8,765 nucleotides of DNA, taken from contig CP070758.1 of the NCBI GenBank assembly GCA_020348925.1, positions 1,506,453 through 1,515,217 on the forward strand, given 5' to 3'. This stretch comes from Gemmatimonadota bacterium. GTDB lineage: Bacteria > JBHIER01 > G020348925. Positions 1 through 8,765 of the stretch are shown in pieces. The notes beneath the pieces are model-generated. The model did no database searches. It was given only the letters and a program-made list of their open reading frames with translations, and was not told where the DNA came from. Position 1 is the stretch's first letter. Each line of letters begins with the position of its first letter. The position numbers were made by a program, and so were the translations under genes.

Positions 1-140
1 ACCATCCAGAACACTGCCAGGACAGCCTTCAAACTCGATCTGATAGGTGATATCGAAGAAGCTGTCGATATGATACAACCCGCCGCCAAGATCTGTTATG
101 GTCGTCTGGCCCGGACTCGGCAGACCTAAATCTGTACCAC
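1..140. repeat. Terminal direct repeat, left copy (contig overlap)
   Basis: These 140 bases are identical to 8626-8765. On the minus strand they encode part of a conserved secreted domain (GLPSPGQTTITDL, then DSFFDITYQIEFEGCPG). An exact end-to-end overlap of this size is what de Bruijn assemblers leave on circular or repeat-closed contigs. The unique unit is then 8,625 bp. Confidence 0.97.
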
Positions 141-2829
141 CTCTCACTCTGAATGTGCAGAAATCCGGATCCCCGAAGAGTTCCCCCTGGAGGCGATACA
201 TGTCGGCCGGAAAAGTCTGCACAGGATCGCCCGGAACCCGCGGTCCGGTGTGGACCTCGCAGAAAACCGGAAGAACGGCGAGATGCCGGTTGAATCCAGC
301 AAGGTCACCGGTCCCATGAAGAGTCAAATCCAGGGTTGCCTCGAAACAATGGCCGTCACCGCCTAAAGAACCACCGCTCGTCTCGCATTCTCCCGGAGCA
401 AGTGGCAAAGTACAGTTAGGATCGTCGTTACAGAGAAAATCCTCGAGAATACCCGGCCCCTCGATCGTGCTTCCGGGGGGAAGCCCGTCGATGATCTGCC
501 ACAGCTCGTCAGGTGATGCATACTGGCAATCCATGGGAGGCAGTGTTGCCGTACCCGTACCATTATCATCGACAATACAGGGACCACCGACTCCCTCAGA
601 GATATCAATACGACAGTCCTCCTCAGAAACGCATTCGCACTCAGTGACCGTAACATTCTCTGCGTTGAAATCCAAGTTCACGCACTTCGGACGGCACTCC
701 TCGTCAGGGTTCGGACAGGGTATGTCCTTGCAGCCCTGACCGTCCGGTGTCGGCCCGCACTCGGCTTGACCCAAAATGACAAAGGCCAGATCGAGGGAGC
801 GACTGCATTTGTGGGTGATGGTCCCTTCGATCGATAGGTTCGTTCCCCTGACATCGATGGAGACCCATTCGGGATTATAATCGTGAATCTCAAAAATAAT
901 ATCCTCATAAAACTTTCCCTCAGGAACCCCATCATCAACGAGGATCTCGCGACCGATGTACAGCGCTTCTTCCTCAGGCGTGAGGGGTGGCAGAGGCGGT
1001 TCACGGTTCTCACCCGGCGGATTCCCCACCAGAGACCATTCCGGGGTGGACCAGTTCACGGCAACCTGAAATTCAGCTCCCGGTCCCCATGGTTCTGCAC
1101 CGAAGGTAATGGATATATCCTTGCGCCCCTCAACGTAGGGATGGTCGTAAAACCATATGTTCCACCAGTTCGTATTCGGGTACTCATACCATCCCAAGCC
1201 GAAGTAATCCGTCCCGCCGCCCCCGTCGAAACTTCCATCCGGGTTGAAAGCGACGCTGAAATCATTGACAATGGGCACAGAAGGCTCCCACAGTTCCACC
1301 CAGTGAAACTCCACCTGCCAATCCTCTCCGCAGACCGCATCATCATTCCAGCGATCCAGCGACGACTTCCAGCCCCAAATCGCACCACCATTTTGAGCCA
1401 CAACGGCAGAAATGCTCAGCCAGTAAACGGTCCCTTCCTGTTGAATGAAGGGATCTGCAATCTCTTGTATTTTATACTCGTAGTACCCCTGATGGTCCTG
1501 TAGGTTGAGAGAGGTTCCACTGCAGGGCCTGTACCACCCCTGCATCTCCAAAGATTTGACAGGATAGACACTAAACTGGCCGAGAGAGAACGTCCTCTCC
1601 CACAGCAAATCCCCCGGCCGGCTGTGCATAATTTCAGCAGCGGGATTGACCGGAATATCGGCATATATTCTTACAATGAATTCTGAGATTATACCGACGC
1701 TGCCTCCCTCCCACGAGCCCCAGAATTGGATCGCCTCGACCGCTCCTGTTTTCGTACAGAGCCAGTCATCCGCCAGCAGGTTGCCCGTGGCATCCACAGC
1801 CCAGCCCGACGGGTTCGGCATCTGGGGAAAGTGCATCTTGGGATCGTACCAGATCGCAGTGGCGGTCCCGTATGCGGCAAAGGCAATCTCGAGCACCTCA
1901 CCGGCCACGGGTTCCACCACACCAATCTCCGTCAGAGGGATCTCAAACTCGTAGACTTTGTGCTCATAGGCCGCCCGGCTCGTATACGTGAAGCCCGGCA
2001 CCCCCCATTCCTGCTCCGGAACCGAGATCTTAAATTCCCTCAGGCCATTCGGTGTCTTCACGTAGACCTTGGCGTAATCCACGTCTCCGTCCATGGTGTT
2101 GTCCGAGGTAAAATCGATGGCCACGTAGAGATTCCGATGGTCATTGCACACCCAGCCGTAAGTGTAGCCGGCCGGATGTCCGGATCCCGGTTGGCAGTAC
2201 TCCTGGAAAAACGGCATCCCCAGGTATTCCCCTTCCAACTCCCCGTCAACGATGAGACGGCCCCACTGACTGTTCAGACTGTACGTGTAAAAACTGGAAG
2301 ATTCGTCGAGATGCTGGTACAGATTGTCGGGTGGAAACTGGAAGGGCACTTCCAGGATGTGCTCCGCTTCGATGCGCGCCACTACGGACAATATCGGAGC
2401 CACATCGTCGACGTGGAAGGTAAAGTTGAGCGATCGCCCCTGGGCGTCAATGACGTCGTAATCATTACTGGCAAGCTTCATCAGAGCAAACGCCTCGTCC
2501 GCATCCGTACCCGTGACGCGGCTTGGTGCCACCCCCCCGAGAGTGACCGCATCAATGTGCGCCGCACTGGTCCCGTAATGGTCGATGGCCACCGTAATCT
2601 CACCGGAGAGGTCGCCTCCGGAAAGCCGAATCTGTTGCTCGGTAAAAAATTTACCATACGAAAGGGAGCCCACAGTCTCCCATTCGCCATCATGACACAT
2701 CGAGACGGAAAACTCCCCGTAGTCCCGCGCCTTGACCGCTGTTGAAGCTATCAACCCCCAAAGAAGTATTGTTACGCAGCACAGAAGAAAACCTTTCGTA
2801 ATCAAAGACTTCACTATTATCTTGGACAT
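1..2829 (-). CDS. Giant secreted multidomain protein, N-terminal part (residues 1-943 of 2,703); continues across the contig join
   Basis: Translation from the ATG at 2829 stays open to position 1 with no stop. Because 1-140 equals 8626-8765 in the same frame, it continues into the piece ending at 3343. The start is supported by an AAAGGAGGA ribosome binding site and an in-frame TAA five codons upstream. Residues 1-34 form a Sec signal peptide: Lys3, Lys7 and Lys12, a core around GFLLCCVTILLWGLIAST, and probable cleavage after AVKA. There is no lipobox. Residues 35 to about 320 are beta-rich and unrecognised. Residues 330-500 resemble DUF7901-like secreted domains (ADDWLC, FWGSW, QEGTVYWLSISAV, WGWKSS, RWNDDAV). 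A block of about 160 residues (NPEWVSIDVRG) separates this from SLDLAFVILG at 678-687. A Cys-rich stretch (about 690-740) and a domain with FNRHLAV, VHTGPR, GDPVQTF and DSFFDITYQIEFEG follow. No catalytic site was seen. Coding is certain; function is unknown, probably surface binding. Confidence 0.9.
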   Translation of the reverse strand, partial: MSKIIVKSLITKGFLLCCVTILLWGLIASTAVKARDYGEFSVSMCHDGEWETVGSLSYGKFFTEQQIRLSGGDLSGEITVAIDHYGTSAAHIDAVTLGGVAPSRVTGTDADEAFALMKLASNDYDVIDAQGRSLNFTFHVDDVAPILSVVARIEAEHILEVPFQFPPDNLYQHLDESSSFYTYSLNSQWGRLIVDGELEGEYLGMPFFQEYCQPGSGHPAGYTYGWVCNDHRNLYVAIDFTSDNTMDGDVDYAKVYVKTPNGLREFKISVPEQEWGVPGFTYTSRAAYEHKVYEFEIPLTEIGVVEPVAGEVLEIAFAAYGTATAIWYDPKMHFPQMPNPSGWAVDATGNLLADDWLCTKTGAVEAIQFWGSWEGGSVGIISEFIVRIYADIPVNPAAEIMHSRPGDLLWERTFSLGQFSVYPVKSLEMQGWYRPCSGTSLNLQDHQGYYEYKIQEIADPFIQQEGTVYWLSISAVVAQNGGAIWGWKSSLDRWNDDAVCGEDWQVEFHWVELWEPSVPIVNDFSVAFNPDGSFDGGGGTDYFGLGWYEYPNTNWWNIWFYDHPYVEGRKDISITFGAEPWGPGAEFQVAVNWSTPEWSLVGNPPGENREPPLPPLTPEEEALYIGREILVDDGVPEGKFYEDIIFEIHDYNPEWVSIDVRGTNLSIEGTITHKCSRSLDLAFVILGQAECGPTPDGQGCKDIPCPNPDEECRPKCVNLDFNAENVTVTECECVSEEDCRIDISEGVGGPCIVDDNGTGTATLPPMDCQYASPDELWQIIDGLPPGSTIEGPGILEDFLCNDDPNCTLPLAPGECETSGGSLGGDGHCFEATLDLTLHGTGDLAGFNRHLAVLPVFCEVHTGPRVPGDPVQTFPADMYRLQGELFGDPDFCTFRVRGGTDLGLPSPGQTTITDLGGGLYHIDSFFDITYQIEFEGCPGSVLDG
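1333..1842 (-). repeat. Intragenic duplication, copy 1 (DUF7901-like domain core)
   Basis: Residues 330-499 align with the domain at 7591-8172. Shared landmarks are PKMH.PQ, SGW, DDWLC, IQ.WGSW, GDLLW, DHQ or TDHQ followed by YY or YF, QEGT.YWL, WGWK and ND. DNA similarity survives around 1421-1450 (cagtaaacggtcccttcctg) against 7696-7725 (cagtaaatggtcccttcttc). Copy 1 is followed by an extra block of about 160 residues before its SLDLAFVILG end. The DUF7901 name is recalled from memory and was not checked against a profile. Confidence 0.8.
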
Positions 2830-2834
2830 AGCGG

Positions 2835-2843
2835 TCCTCCTTT
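2835..2843 (-). promoter_or_regulatory. Strong ribosome binding site
   Basis: AAAGGAGGA on the minus strand lies 5 bp before the ATG at 2829 and almost fully matches the anti-Shine-Dalgarno sequence. An in-frame TAA at 2842-2844 rules out a start further upstream. Together these fix the start codon. Confidence 0.85.
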
Positions 2844-2888
2844 ATCAGAAACCATATAAGAATGATTAAGCACCATGTTTTCGAATTC

Positions 2889-2913
2889 TTTATGTCGTTT
2901 CTTTCGACACAAA
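2889..2913 (-). promoter_or_regulatory. Hairpin in the 5' leader
   Basis: On the minus strand TTTGTGTCG and CGACATAAA can form a 9 bp stem with one G-U pair and a 7 nt AAAGAAA loop. It lies between the predicted start of transcription and the ribosome binding site. No T-run follows, so it is not a terminator. It may be an mRNA-stabilising or regulatory structure. No riboswitch class was recognised. Confidence 0.4.
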
Positions 2914-2958
2914 ACGAGTATTCCTTTTCGATGCACAACGTTTCGTATATTTATATGA

Positions 2959-2987
2959 AATTTAGAGCGTAAGATATTATATGTCAA
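2959..2987 (-). promoter_or_regulatory. Sigma70-like promoter for the giant gene
   Basis: On the minus strand a perfect -35 box TTGACA (2987-2982) is followed by a 17 bp spacer and a -10 box TAAATT (2964-2959, four of six consensus). Predicted transcription starts near 2951, leaving a leader of about 120 nt. The surroundings are strongly AT-rich. A perfect TATAAT also occurs at 2981-2976 but lacks a -35 box at the right distance. The call is by consensus only. Confidence 0.6.
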
Positions 2988-3175
2988 GTGTTTTTTATAT
3001 GTGTTCACAGGAAATTCCAGTACCTTTTTTTCCACACGCCTTGTAATCTTCCGGCCATTTCCCCGGACAGAACATATTTTCAGGCACGATATTGGTCACA
3101 TAAAGAAATGATTCCGTTTTGCCGCAGCTTCGGTATCCCACCCGATTTCCCTTTGGAATACGAATTCACCACACT

Positions 3176-3218
3176 CTGTAAAGGAAAACCTCCCGCGGAT
3201 TTTCACCTTTCGGGAGGT
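3176..3218 (-). terminator. Candidate Rho-independent terminator
   Basis: ACCTCCCG (3188-3195) and CGGGAGGT (3211-3218) are a perfect 8 bp, GC-rich inverted repeat with a 15 nt loop. Read on the minus strand, the stem is followed by TTTCCTTT. It lies about 125 bp downstream of the stop at 3343 and upstream of the promoter, as expected for a terminator ending this transcript. The T-run is interrupted by CC and the loop is long. Confidence 0.55.
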
Positions 3219-3280
3219 CGTGTTACCCTATGTTTTTCGACCTTTCGAACATTCGCCACAGTGTATTTCTTCGCTGTATC

Positions 3281-3318
3281 CAGGACAAGCTCTGAGCGAA
3301 GTCGAAGGGCTCAGGACA
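3281..3318. repeat. REP-like palindromic element downstream of the stop codon
   Basis: CTGAGC (3292-3297) and GCTCAG (3309-3314) flank an 11 nt centre (GAAGTCGAAGG). The direct repeat CAGGACA occurs at 3281-3287 and 3312-3318. GAGCGAAGTCGAAG-type palindromes are, from memory, common dispersed intergenic repeats in environmental bacterial genomes. Only one copy is in the window, so dispersal cannot be shown here. The position, 25-60 bp after the gene's stop, is typical of REP-like elements. Confidence 0.5.
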
Positions 3319-3342
3319 TGCTTTTGAAACGTTTTGACTGTT

Positions 3343-6300
3343 CTATCTCATCAACACCATCCGCCTCGTCTGGGTGAAATCATTCGCCCGGATCCTGTAG
3401 AAGTAGACGCCGCTGGCCGCCTGCTCACCGTCCCACCGAACTCTGTGGTAGCCCGCCTCCATATCGTCGTTCACCAGCTCGGTCACCACCTGTCCCAGTA
3501 TATTATAAACCGTTACGTTCACCCTGGCATCCTCGGGCAGACCGAATTCAATACTCGTCACAGGATTGAAAGGATTGGGATAGTTCTGCGCCAGACTGTA
3601 CTCCAGCGGTATGAGATCTCCCACCTTGACCACAAACAGTCGCCCGTGCCCGAAGCTGATCCGCTCGTCCACCGTGAAAACCACCGGCTCCACCACCTCC
3701 ACCTCGATCTCATCCCCCACCTCCCCCATCACCTCGAACAAAACACGCACCACCGGCCCACTGCCGGCCTCTATCACCCCACCGCTCAGACTCGACACAA
3801 AGACCACCAGCTCTTCACCAACCACCTGAGACATGACATCCATCCCCGCCGAACGCTCCGTCACCTCAGGCGCACCCGCCTCCAGAACATCCCCATCATA
3901 CCGGAACCGCAGCAACACTCCGGCCACGTCCTGCTCCGAGGTCACATCCACAGGCACCGCCACCGTCCGACCCGACACCCCCACCGCATCACCCACAGCC
4001 ACCTCGGCCACGACCACCTTCGGATCGCACACGCCCACCGCCCGGTTGATGCACTTCATCAGATCGATAATATTCACCAGCGTGTCCCCGTTGGCATCGG
4101 ACGCCCACAACTGCGTCCCGGGTGAGGTTACCGGTCCGGTCAACGGCGGCTCCTGCCTGCCGACCATGTGATTCAACACGGCAAACAGATCCAGCAACGT
4201 CACCATCGTGTCCGCCACTCCAAATTGGCCTGTCACGTCGCACTTGCCCGGCACCAGGTACCCCCCAAAACAGATCTGACCCTTGTCCTCCAGCTTCAAA
4301 CACAGCGGCTCCTTCGGCTCCGGAGGATCACCCCAGTCATCCAGACCGTCCAGGATCACGTCCGAATACACGATATCGGCACAACTGCCGGCAGGCGCAC
4401 CGGGCAGCACTTCAAACAACACCCGCAAGATCGACAAGTTGCCCTCATGCGCATATCCCGGCGGCAACTCACAGAACCCCTCACCGGCCGGCAACACTTC
4501 GATCTGAGGATGCTCAGGCGTCGAAAACAGCGCAATCTCAACCAGCCCCCCTCCAGGATGCGACAGCCAGACCAGCTCGAACCCTTCGCTCCGCGCCGTC
4601 TTGACCACCTCCACAACCTGTAAATACTGCGCATCATAGGCCAAATCGATCTGCACCGCCGAAACCGGATACTCGTTGTCCAGCATCAGCCCGACAGTCA
4701 CCGTATCCCCAGGCACCACCGTCGGGTCCTCACCACCGCAGTTGGAATGCTTGTAGGCCACCTTCACACCCGAGGTGTCCCGCATACACATACCGGTAAA
4801 GGGCATGAACTTGATATCCGCCACAGCCGTATCCTGAGAACAATACCCCTTGGCCGCATGCACCACCACATGCGCCGGCAGTTCCACCGGCGGCCCGGAT
4901 CCCCTCGGGATGATCGTCAACAGCGCCTGACCCCGACCCCCGGGCTCCAGACACAAAACCGTCTCGCTGAAATAATAATCCCACAACGGCGGGATGTCAC
5001 CCGCCTCTATCCACAGGCTGATGCAATCGTAATAGGGCTCCTCGTTGGACACCGGCAACGGTACGACGACCGACGCCCACGTCGCCTCCGCACTCACCCA
5101 GCGGTGCCTCGACCACATCCACCGCTCGCAATCCCGCAGATACCCCGTCGTCGAATCCTCGACCGTCCAGATCCACTCCCCGGGACCATCGCCAGGCGTC
5201 AGACAATGATCCCGCAGCACAGGGTAGTCGACGACGATGTTCCGCGCATACTGCTGATAGGTACTACTAATGATAGCCTCGTACTCATAAAACGGCGTCT
5301 TCCCATGATACGGCGCTACCACCTGAATCCCCGAACCCCCGATGCCCCCCCACAAAACCGTATCATAGACCGCCTCGACCGGCATGAAAAACCCCCACGG
5401 CGCCAACCCGAAACTGATCTTCGGATAGGCGCTGTTGGATCCCTCATTGACCACCGTGGCCCACACATCGTAGGGCACATTCTCACACGGGTAGCGCGGA
5501 CTCCAGCGGATATCCTCCGCATGCACCGGCTGCACCCGACGCCCATCCGGCCCCAAGTAGAGATGCTCGGGGTAGGGCATAAACTCCAGCTCCACCTCTC
5601 CCCACTCGCCGCTGCACTTAAAACCCCTCACCTTTAAAAGAACAGGCCCCTCCGGCTCCGGTCCATCCGGCCAGACCGTCACATAGACGCTATCCCTGTC
5701 CCCCGGAGTTCCGAAGGGCTGCAGAACCAGAAGCGTCTCATTCAAGATAACCTCCCACTCCTCCGGGACACCCTCCAAGGACAGTTCAATCGCCATCGGA
5801 ACCGATGCATCGTTCCACACCGGGATAACGATGGGCTTCAATCCCCATCGGACGGGTTCCGTGCTCCACGGATCTTCCGGCCAGATCGTCATCCGGCATC
5901 GACGGGCAAAATTCAGGGTATCATCGAGGCAAAAAGCTCCATCCACATCCCATTGTTTCGCCAGCCAGGTCACAACAATATTCCGCGCCCACCAGTTCTC
6001 GCCGTCCGGATGATGGTGGTACTCGCACTCGCAGGTCAGGGTGTCCGTGGCACCGCCCGGGACCATTACAGGGCCTACGGTACAATGAGGCCGTATGCCT
6101 ATGGGCGGAACCGTGAACAGACCCCACGGCGCCTCAAAAAAGCTGGCCGACAGAGGTGCAGCCTCCTCGCACTCGTTCCGGAAGACCGCCTTGACCGTGT
6201 AATCATCGCAGACGCACGGATACTGATCGCGGTAGGGATGGGTCCACGTAATGGTCGGCTTGGGCGTCTCGAGACATCCGGGGTTGTAATCGAGACAGAC

Positions 6301-8765
6301 ACGCACCATGTATTCGTATCCCGGAAAACACTTCCACTGGTTCAATTCGGCATTCCAAATCCAGGAGTAGGTCGTATCATGGCCGGCATCGCCCAGAATC
6401 CTGGGCCTGCCCGGCTGAGGCCCCCTCTGCTGCCAGACAATGTAAAAACAACGCTTGGGTGGGATGATGATGCAACTGTCGCGCACCACCACCTTTTCCC
6501 AATTCCAGTTCCCGATAAAGCCGACACCCTCTATGAAATCCAAAGGCGGCGACTCCAACATGGATACATCTGGCGGCAGAGGCTCACAGGGCTCGCACGG
6601 CGACACCAATCCCACATAGACCCACATATTGATGAGCCCCATGTCAAACCACTGAAAGGAGATGGTATCAAGCCTGGCCTCACCGCAGGGATTGTAAAAA
6701 CCGATGGCGTACAGATCCGATCCGGGCGTCGGCCCCACGAGATAATCGTCCGCCTGCTCGTCAAGATCGTTGTCCCAGCAGCAGTGGCCCCAGCACTCGG
6801 GGTAACACGGCCCGCGGCGGCCGTCGAAGCCCTCGACACCACGCTCCACATGAAGCGGGATATTGTTGTTGATGATCCAAGGATCGCCCGGCTCGAGATC
6901 GAAGGTCAGGTAAAAGTCCGTACAGGCGTCCGACGTGAGAAAGCCTGTGCTGCCGTTCTCACCGGCACCCAGCACTGTCGGATCAGGACCGCCCGTCGGA
7001 TCGAAGGGCGGCGGATTCTGCCGCAGGCAGGTGCTGCTCAAGGAGGTGTTTGGCGGCAGGGTCAGGATCAGGGTATATACTCCGGCTGTGCCATCGGTCA
7101 GAAATCGATAGTAGCCCGAGGATCCATCGTCGAAGATCGTAATCGCACCCGGACCGCTGACCGACACGTTCCCGCCGGGGATAATCTCACCCGTCTCCTC
7201 GTCGTAGTAGTAACCAGTGGGATCGTAGTCGAGATGGTTGGGAATACCGTCCCCGTCTCGATCAGTAATTCCTTCAAGGATATCCGGCATGCCGTCCCCG
7301 TCCGAATCCCCGCACGGCGGGTCCAGGGTGGCACAGGTCTGATACGGTGCAAAACGAGCCCACGATGGGCAGTCCTCCCAGTAGACGTTGTCCTCACAAT
7401 AACTGTCGTGATCGTCGCAGCAGGCCCCATAGAGCCACGGCTCGCTGCAGATAACAAAGGCCATATCCAGAGGCTCACCCGTCTCAGGATCGAGGAGGCG
7501 CATATCCTCCTGACTCGTTGATAAAATCTTGTCCTTAAATGGCCCTTTTCGAGATGAAGTGGGAGTTTCTAAATTCAAATAAAAAATAACCCACAGTGCA
7601 GCGTCATTGAAATGGCTCTTCGATGTCTTCCAACCCCACGCCGGCAAAGATGGTCCGCCGTTATCACCCGTCTCGACAGCTGCAGCGATCATGAGCCAGT
7701 AAATGGTCCCTTCTTCCTGAATAAAGAATCCATTCCCAAATCCGTTGTCAATTGGGAAAAAAACGTCCGACATATCCAGTGTATACTGAAAATATCTCTG
7801 ATGATCCGTCGGGAAAACTGAGCCCTCTCCAGGAATAAAAAATCCCTCCCACTCGGATGTTTCTATCGGATAAGAATCCCAACCCTCACAGATACCATAC
7901 CACAGCAAATCTCCCCACATACTGTAGCCGGTCGGGCTTTCGTGGGCAGGGATGTCACTTAGAATACCTACCAGAAAACCGTGAATTTCGTCCTCAACAT
8001 CCTCCAACCACGAACCCCAGAGTTGAATTTCGGTCACCGGGCCGGTCTCCGTGCACAGCCAATCATCGACCGCAGCTACGCCACTCCATTGTCCTAACTC
8101 AAAAATTAAAGTTGATGAGAAAACATCCCAGCCGGACTCGTCCGGAAATTGGGGGTAATGCATCTTTGGATAGCACTCGCAGGCATCGTCAGGACCATTC
8201 CCGTTCAGATCCCCAAGACACGTGCTGCCCGGTCCCAGGGGAACGCCCCCGATGGCCAGACATTCCTCGTAGAGCAACTCCTGGCACAATCCCTCTTCCA
8301 TGCAGCAGGCCACGGTCGAGGGAAACTCACAGGCATCGTCTGAGCCGTTGAAATCATTGTCCCCAAGACAGACGCTGCCCGGACCCTGGGGTACACCGCC
8401 GTTGTCAATACAGGTACGCACACCCAGATCGAAACAGCCGCCATCGGAGAAGCAGCAGGCCTCCACGGCCCCAAGGACACAGTTGCAGCAGATGTCCACT
8501 GTCCCGTCCCCATTGACGGTCACATCCCGCTCGCAGATCTCATCCGGCGGACATCCACCGGAGCAGCCAACAAAATGCAGCACACCGGTGGCCATCCGAA
8601 TGGTGGCCGTCGTCGTGCCGGCTAAACCATCCAGAACACTGCCAGGACAGCCTTCAAACTCGATCTGATAGGTGATATCGAAGAAGCTGTCGATATGATA
8701 CAACCCGCCGCCAAGATCTGTTATGGTCGTCTGGCCCGGACTCGGCAGACCTAAATCTGTACCAC
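3343..8765 (-). CDS. Giant secreted multidomain protein, C-terminal part with cohesin-dockerin-cohesin and T9SS sorting domain
   Basis: This is open from the right edge to a TAG at 3343-3345 and continues the protein starting at 2829. In full-length numbering it ends at residue 2703. In order: two Cys-rich repeats (999-1093); a compact DUF7901-like domain (1095-1338); a third Cys-rich unit (1343-1381); calcium loops DSDGDGMPDILE and DRDGDGIPNHLD (1383-1409); a beta-rich region; two tandem 235-residue units (1734-1965, 1980-2222); a cohesin-like domain (2243-2398, VPGDTVTVGLMLDN and VQIDLAYDAQYL); a dockerin-like pair (2404-2474), whose second loop SDANGDTLVNIIDL fits the calcium consensus; a second cohesin-like domain (2479-2609); and a type IX sorting domain (2616-2703) with AQNYPNPFNP, VYNILGQVV and GVYFYRI. 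The family sense is Sec export followed by T9SS outer-membrane passage and surface attachment. The apparent internal TTG start near 8703 is not real: it lies inside the continuing frame. No enzyme domain was seen. Confidence 0.92.
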   Translation of the reverse strand, partial: GTDLGLPSPGQTTITDLGGGLYHIDSFFDITYQIEFEGCPGSVLDGLAGTTTATIRMATGVLHFVGCSGGCPPDEICERDVTVNGDGTVDICCNCVLGAVEACCFSDGGCFDLGVRTCIDNGGVPQGPGSVCLGDNDFNGSDDACEFPSTVACCMEEGLCQELLYEECLAIGGVPLGPGSTCLGDLNGNGPDDACECYPKMHYPQFPDESGWDVFSSTLIFELGQWSGVAAVDDWLCTETGPVTEIQLWGSWLEDVEDEIHGFLVGILSDIPAHESPTGYSMWGDLLWYGICEGWDSYPIETSEWEGFFIPGEGSVFPTDHQRYFQYTLDMSDVFFPIDNGFGNGFFIQEEGTIYWLMIAAAVETGDNGGPSLPAWGWKTSKSHFNDAALWVIFYLNLETPTSSRKGPFKDKILSTSQEDMRLLDPETGEPLDMAFVICSEPWLYGACCDDHDSYCEDNVYWEDCPSWARFAPYQTCATLDPPCGDSDGDGMPDILEGITDRDGDGIPNHLDYDPTGYYYDEETGEIIPGGNVSVSGPGAITIFDDGSSGYYRFLTDGTAGVYTLILTLPPNTSLSSTCLRQNPPPFDPTGGPDPTVLGAGENGSTGFLTSDACTDFYLTFDLEPGDPWIINNNIPLHVERGVEGFDGRRGPCYPECWGHCCWDNDLDEQADDYLVGPTPGSDLYAIGFYNPCGEARLDTISFQWFDMGLINMWVYVGLVSPCEPCEPLPPDVSMLESPPLDFIEGVGFIGNWNWEKVVVRDSCIIIPPKRCFYIVWQQRGPQPGRPRILGDAGHDTTYSWIWNAELNQWKCFPGYEYMVRVCLDYNPGCLETPKPTITWTHPYRDQYPCVCDDYTVKAVFRNECEEAAPLSASFFEAPWGLFTVPPIGIRPHCTVGPVMVPGGATDTLTCECEYHHHPDGENWWARNIVVTWLAKQWDVDGAFCLDDTLNFARRCRMTIWPEDPWSTEPVRWGLKPIVIPVWNDASVPMAIELSLEGVPEEWEVILNETLLVLQPFGTPGDRDSVYVTVWPDGPEPEGPVLLKVRGFKCSGEWGEVELEFMPYPEHLYLGPDGRRVQPVHAEDIRWSPRYPCENVPYDVWATVVNEGSNSAYPKISFGLAPWGFFMPVEAVYDTVLWGGIGGSGIQVVAPYHGKTPFYEYEAIISSTYQQYARNIVVDYPVLRDHCLTPGDGPGEWIWTVEDSTTGYLRDCERWMWSRHRWVSAEATWASVVVPLPVSNEEPYYDCISLWIEAGDIPPLWDYYFSETVLCLEPGGRGQALLTIIPRGSGPPVELPAHVVVHAAKGYCSQDTAVADIKFMPFTGMCMRDTSGVKVAYKHSNCGGEDPTVVPGDTVTVGLMLDNEYPVSAVQIDLAYDAQYLQVVEVVKTARSEGFELVWLSHPGGGLVEIALFSTPEHPQIEVLPAGEGFCELPPGYAHEGNLSILRVLFEVLPGAPAGSCADIVYSDVILDGLDDWGDPPEPKEPLCLKLEDKGQICFGGYLVPGKCDVTGQFGVADTMVTLLDLFAVLNHMVGRQEPPLTGPVTSPGTQLWASDANGDTLVNIIDLMKCINRAVGVCDPKVVVAEVAVGDAVGVSGRTVAVPVDVTSEQDVAGVLLRFRYDGDVLEAGAPEVTERSAGMDVMSQVVGEELVVFVSSLSGGVIEAGSGPVVRVLFEVMGEVGDEIEVEVVEPVVFTVDERISFGHGRLFVVKVGDLIPLEYSLAQNYPNPFNPVTSIEFGLPEDARVNVTVYNILGQVVTELVNDDMEAGYHRVRWDGEQAASGVYFYRIRANDFTQTRRMVLMR
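4789..5517 (-). repeat. Large tandem protein repeat, unit B (about 243 residues)
   Basis: Residues 1980-2222 are the second copy of the unit described at 5560-6255. A short linker (LYLGPDGRRVQPV) separates the units. The copies share motif order but have low overall identity. Unit B leads directly into the cohesin-like domain, so the pair may act as a stalk placing the cohesin, dockerin and sorting modules at the C-terminal end. Confidence 0.75.
5560..6255 (-). repeat. Large tandem protein repeat, unit A (about 232 residues)
   Basis: Residues 1734-1965 match unit B at 4789-5517 in order: TITW against DIRW, then HPYRDQYPC against SPRYPC, APWGLFTVP against APWGFFMPV, ARNIVV in both, RRCRMTIW against RDCERWMW, VIPVWN against VVPLPVSN, VLQPFG against CLEPGG, and ELEFMPYP against DIKFMPFT. 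Conserved Trp, Cys and Pro positions and alternating hydrophobics suggest two Ig-like beta-sandwiches per unit. No named family was recognised. Confidence 0.75.
7591..8172 (-). repeat. Intragenic duplication, copy 2 (DUF7901-like domain core)
   Basis: Residues 1095-1288 are the second, compact copy of the domain, matching 1333-1842 at protein level. It goes directly into a short linker and then PLDMAFVICSEP, without the long insertion of copy 1. It carries extra residues around LEDVEDEIHGF and the EWEGFFIPGEG loop. The copies are clearly diverged, so the duplication is old relative to the identical terminal repeat. Confidence 0.8.
8176..8460 (-). repeat. Two tandem Cys-rich repeats of about 46 residues
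   Basis: Residues 999-1043 and 1048-1093 share the pattern ACC(F/M)..G.C, then C...GGVP.GPGS.CLGD, then NG(S/P)DDACE. The evenly spaced Cys suggest disulfide-stabilised small modules of an exported protein. A third, more divergent unit starting GACCDDHDSYC lies at 7312-7428. Similar repeats are common in secreted proteins of Planctomycetes and FCB bacteria; this family link is from memory. Confidence 0.8.
8626..8765. repeat. Terminal direct repeat, right copy (contig overlap)
   Basis: This is an exact copy of 1-140 in the same orientation and reading frame. Merging the two copies joins the left and right parts of the gene without a stop or frameshift. The join reads VLDG then LAGTTTATIRM, a continuous domain. 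Confidence 0.97.

Follow-up and report, generated by a model that had tools for sequence, protein, structure and literature searches.

The window analysed here, an 8,765-nucleotide stretch of a Gemmatimonadota genome, begins and ends with the same sequence, which raises the question of whether it represents a circular molecule carrying one gene or a piece of chromosome that was closed on itself during assembly. An earlier note, made from the sequence alone, had read the two ends as an overlap that closes an 8,625-bp circle through the middle of a gene for a 2,703-residue protein. The identity of the ends was exact (positions 1-140 and 8626-8765), the longest terminal overlap being precisely 140 bp, and the minus-strand frame was open across the join. 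In line with the note, re-calling of genes after removal of one overlap copy, which leaves 8,625 bp, returned a minus-strand ORF of 2,703 amino acids from the ATG at 2829 to a stop codon, and the other frames of this joined unit reached at most 627 codons. The linear ORF list contained the TTG start at 8703 against which the note had warned, a caution that keeps its use for annotators, and the C-terminal sorting domain that it had described was recovered as well. Plus-strand ORFs of up to 522 aa gave no match above family cut-offs and were rejected as genes. The overlap copies, the gene halves and their domains are located as follows:

1-140, no strand assigned: terminal overlap copy 1 (3' end of the gene head), identical to 8626-8765
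8626-8765, no strand assigned: terminal overlap copy 2 (5' end of the gene tail), identical to 1-140
1-2829, minus strand: gene head, with the ATG at 2829 and the N-terminal 943 residues, running off the window end
3343-8763, minus strand: gene tail, 1,806 residues to the stop, entering from the other window end
1246-1836, minus strand: DUF7901 copy 1, in the head (PF25470, E 3e-44)
7450-8163, minus strand: DUF7901 copy 2, in the tail (PF25470, E 2.8e-34)
1-579, minus strand: first part of an unnamed domain of ~207 residues, whose homologues align across the join
8584-8765, minus strand: last part of the same unnamed domain, with homologues aligning across the join
4045-4212, minus strand: dockerin-like stretch (PF00404, E 0.021, below the Pfam cut-off)
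3673-4005, minus strand: cohesin-like domain (PF00963, E 2.6e-8, above cut-off)
3355-3582, minus strand: T9SS type A C-terminal sorting domain (TIGR04183, E 3.6e-11, above cut-off; also PF18962)

The encoded protein resembles the T9SS-exported modular surface proteins that bear a Por_Secre_tail or type A sorting domain: it shares the above-cut-off sorting domain, it has an apparent signal peptide in MSKIIVKSLITKGFLLCCVTILLWGLIASTAVKA (a basic start and a hydrophobic stretch, judged by eye), and its genome encodes SprA of the type IX system (TIGR04189, 568 bits, or 708 bits with in-frame neighbours). Because both the sorting tail and SprA are present, export by the T9SS would be the likely route. 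To our knowledge, two DUF7901 domains, the unnamed ~207-residue domain and a cohesin-like domain are not usual for characterised T9SS cargo. DUF7901 occurred twice in the whole genome, both times inside the window, and no solved structure was similar by sequence to the tail. As a separate observation, dockerin-like and cohesin-like modules adjoin here in one T9SS-tailed protein family.

The join cuts the unnamed domain, which lies at residues 751-957 of the joined protein (window 579-1 and 8765-8584, minus strand) and had no Pfam match. When a 226-residue query across the overlap was searched, 50 loci were found in bacterial and archaeal metagenome-assembled genomes (MAGs), about 20 of which aligned from residue 1 or 2 to approximately residue 226, with up to 69% identity (locus L041, over query residues 1-226). 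Collinear matches reaching joined residue 1093 were found in Phycisphaerae / Phycisphaerales MAGs, and individual loci covered joined residues 690-1093 at 56% (L044), 626-1029 at 50% (L045) and 621-1093 at 41% identity (L064). Since the domain aligns unbroken across the join in many unrelated bacteria, joining the two halves appears natural. In several relatives it occurs in 2-5 copies within a single ORF, and it is therefore a repeat-prone module. The gene is probably modelled correctly through the join, with the reservation that its internal domain copies may have been collapsed in number. A true biological terminal repeat was rejected because the overlap sits mid-domain in coding sequence. 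With the open frame and the collinear spanning domain, the 8,625-bp closure proposed in the note thus stands as a path through the sequence. Regarding the distribution of the unnamed domain, 1-5 copies per ORF were observed (L041, L045, L051, L054, L068), under the MAG labels Planctomycetota, Zixibacteria, Bacteroidota, Eisenbacteria and Thermoplasmatota.

Whether this path corresponds to a molecule depends on where the window comes from. It occupies G000:C1:1506453-1515217 in a 5,037,917-bp single-scaffold genome and is not a free-standing contig: both flanks are runs of exactly 100 N. In the 1.32 Mb sampled, all 56 gaps measured exactly 100 N, and the pieces between them ranged from 2.5 to 185 kb. 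This uniformity indicates that the scaffold is a concatenation with placeholder gaps, and the window is one contig of what was probably a metagenome assembly from short reads, its contigs being strung together afterwards with 100-N spacers. A cut M14-type peptidase gene adjoins on the left and a cut S8-type one on the right (by eye from translations); as the scaffold is concatenated, however, these neighbours give no certain true position. Several observations on the wider record go beyond the window. Gene order across the 100-N gaps of the 5.04-Mb scaffold is not trustworthy, and records CP070827, CP070630 and CP070718, encountered in the homologue search, have the same 100-N joins. A similar set of single-record bins spans CP0706xx-CP0708xx, and some of these are likewise joined by 100 N; no proof was obtained that the present genome is one of them, and a paper on such bins used k values other than the one apparent here. 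A tandem copy of the M14-type peptidase gene is present at G000:C1:1503663-1506352 (L003), and the contig left of the window stops 118 exact bases into this repeat, which is the same kind of break. The contig at G000:C1:1356971 opens with a run of ~30 C interrupted by a single G, which is probably artefactual, from sequencing or assembly.

The length of the overlap was compared with repeats at other piece ends. The pieces starting at 707904 and 3650539 open with the same 141 bases and then diverge, as is typical when two contigs depart from a single node of the graph. Other piece ends carried exact repeats of 136, 132, 130, 129, 118, 117 and 108 bp, and 141 was the maximum for any exact repeat reaching a piece end; from these repeats, the apparent k of the assembler was 141. 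In de Bruijn metagenome assemblies, cyclic contigs have direct terminal overlaps of k-mer size, the ends sharing maxK bases (MEGAHIT/metaSPAdes) or maxK-1 bases (IDBA_UD) (COBRA, PMC10914622). Given this published behaviour and the 141-bp ceiling, the 140-bp overlap is of assembler-word size. Like the cyclic contigs described there, the window has an exact k-scale end overlap and an arbitrary cut, here within a gene; it differs in that its 140 is one off the 141 of the other contig-end pair, which leaves simple loop closure at k = 141 unproven. Among 80 circular microvirus contigs from IMG/VR that served as a control, terminal overlaps included 99, 121, 123 and 127, which, together with the paper searches, suggests that loops leave an overlap of exactly k. 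Since 140 is one base short of the inferred k and the control overlaps include odd k values, we do not take the loop to be cleanly closed; 140 would result equally well if one word were missing from the cycle or if a repeat had broken the contig. An exact repeat of 365 bp, lying within two contigs, is at odds with an assembly made purely of k = 141 unitigs.

The genome also holds a family to which the gene belongs. The C-terminal part of the protein had at least 10 paralogous matches at 58-66% in its own genome, and the head was unique to the window. Among 40 other genomes searched, no match to the head was found, and matches to the tail were mainly via the C-terminal sorting region. On five other pieces of the scaffold, a spacer separates the tail of one family gene from the head of the next, both genes being in the same orientation. 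In two of these pieces the contig ends were homologous, at 89% over 217 bp (930725-935312) and at 71% over ~600 bp (102365-107060). In each case the two ends come from different genes that are neighbours, which shows that contig ends in this genome can be homologous without a circle. Tandem T9SS-tailed large paralogues were observed on the G000 contigs 102365-107060, 668169-673981, 930725-935312, 2639588-2642559 and 2295782-2480873, and the exact repeats of 108-365 bp among tandem paralogues suggest gene conversion or recent exchange.

On one further contig (264637-267144), a sequence with 94% nucleotide identity to the final 611 bp of the window's gene lies ahead of an unrelated S9-peptidase-like gene. 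At least the 3' end therefore exists in a second copy that separated recently, from either the same genome or a co-binned strain. The copy shared only 108-125 exact bases with the window; its middle is therefore missing rather than shown to be identical.

The region between stop and start was examined against the spacers of the tandem family. Its features are the following:

2830-3342, minus strand: spacer of 513 bp, from stop to start codon, with the anatomy of tandem-family spacers elsewhere
3187-3219, minus strand: terminator-like hairpin, then TTTTCCTTT (fold -17 kcal/mol)
3281-3321, no strand assigned: REP-like motif GCATGTCCTGAGC..., also in the spacers of three other family pieces
2959-2987, minus strand: promoter-like TTGACA-17-TAAATT

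The hairpin, which a simple scan had missed owing to its longer loop, and its T-run are common to the window spacer and other family spacers, as is AAAAA..CTTGACA, which recurred in all six spacers compared; the REP-like motif was found in four of the six. A shuffled sequence likewise yielded one promoter-like match, and the weight of the promoter lies in its recurrence across spacers.

We then considered whether the window could be a replicon. It contained a single gene; Pfam and PHROGs revealed no function in replication or mobility, and Rfam gave no RNA match. Searches of the head against plasmids, of the tail against phages and of both against IMG/VR returned no relative. The overlap sequence matched twice in the whole genome, both matches being the window ends, and a third copy was absent from this whole-genome search.

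Any explanation must account for 140 identical bases. With ordinary family members 58-75% alike, chance gives 0.75^140, about 3e-18, and even 0.97^140 is about 0.014; the paralogues are thus too diverged for such identity by chance, and near-identical copies, local gene conversion or one closed unit are required. The window could be a linear contig lying between two different adjacent paralogues that share exactly 140 bp through a conserved domain or gene conversion, which we consider unlikely; equally unlikely is its corollary, that nothing here is circular and the 2,703-residue protein is chimeric, its tail taken from one gene and its head from the next. Other pieces are built exactly in this way, with the two pairs of similar ends described above, exact repeats of 108-141 bp occur between family members at contig ends, and the spanning domain is repeated within homologous ORFs. 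However, 140 identical bases would need family members ~97% or more alike, and the partner halves (a second DUF7901 and a second domain copy) are absent from a 96%-complete genome. Another fault of assembly, in which a strain mixture or a chimeric local assembly gave a false cycle, would suit a metagenome bin that was stitched together and in which genes are broken at both gaps, but it is quite improbable, the joined domain being collinear with its homologues and the frame being kept.

As a physical molecule, the circle was not supported. A real extrachromosomal circle, that is, an excised minicircle or plasmid-like element with one surface-protein gene, would explain the exact closure, the open frame, the natural domain across the join and why no other contig touches the overlap, and the circular phage controls do have k-typical overlaps. 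Nevertheless, we regard it as improbable: the overlap has the length of an assembler word, the spacer is of the usual kind between tandem genes of the chromosome, replication and mobility genes, RNA and plasmid or phage relatives were all absent from the searches above, and other contigs of the genome carry paralogues, analogous pieces that are plainly linear, and the 94% tail copy. Fainter still is the chance of a free single-gene circle of 8.6 kb, excised by recombination between tandem surface-protein gene copies, which could amplify or shuffle the family.

The reading we favour, with somewhat better than even confidence, is that near-identical head-to-tail chromosomal copies were collapsed, giving an assembly-graph cycle around one gene unit. 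The window would be one repeat unit, comprising promoter, 2,703-codon secreted-protein gene and terminator, and would belong to the gene family that lies head to tail in the chromosome. Adjacent copies, at least two in number and nearly identical, would collapse in the assembly graph, such that the path out of the gene's 3' end re-enters its own 5' end, and the contig would then be cut within the gene, with an overlap of about one k-mer. The closing path would accordingly run through tandem copies and not around a free circle. Collapsed copies are favoured because of the 100-N flanks, the k-scale end repeats, the tandem layout, the homologous contig ends of two other pieces and the shared spacer anatomy, and because of the 94% tail copy elsewhere and a single gene lacking plasmid, phage or RNA matches. 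As in collapsed tandem arrays of short-read assemblies, the window has a promoter/terminator unit, tandem paralogues elsewhere and ends inside homologous coding sequence. It differs from them in that no flanking contigs with the overlap were found in the bin, though a collapsed array should leave such flanks; no piece below ~2.5 kb occurred in the part of the bin that was sampled, and short flanking contigs may have been missed. The confinement of DUF7901 and the head to the window, the limited exact identity shared with the 94% copy, the one-base shortfall from the apparent k and the 365-bp internal repeat also count against collapsed copies.

The significance of these results lies mainly in annotation and in catalogues of circular elements. 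Positions 1-2829 and 3343-8763 should be treated as halves of one gene model, with one overlap copy dropped, and the piece should not be catalogued as a plasmid or virus. Contigs with k-mer-sized end overlaps can be taken for circular plasmids or viruses that are complete, and bins that were concatenated may enter databases as chromosomes; at this window both signals mislead at once. The biology behind it is of moderate interest: a lineage in which large modular proteins exported by the T9SS are numerous and encoded in tandem.
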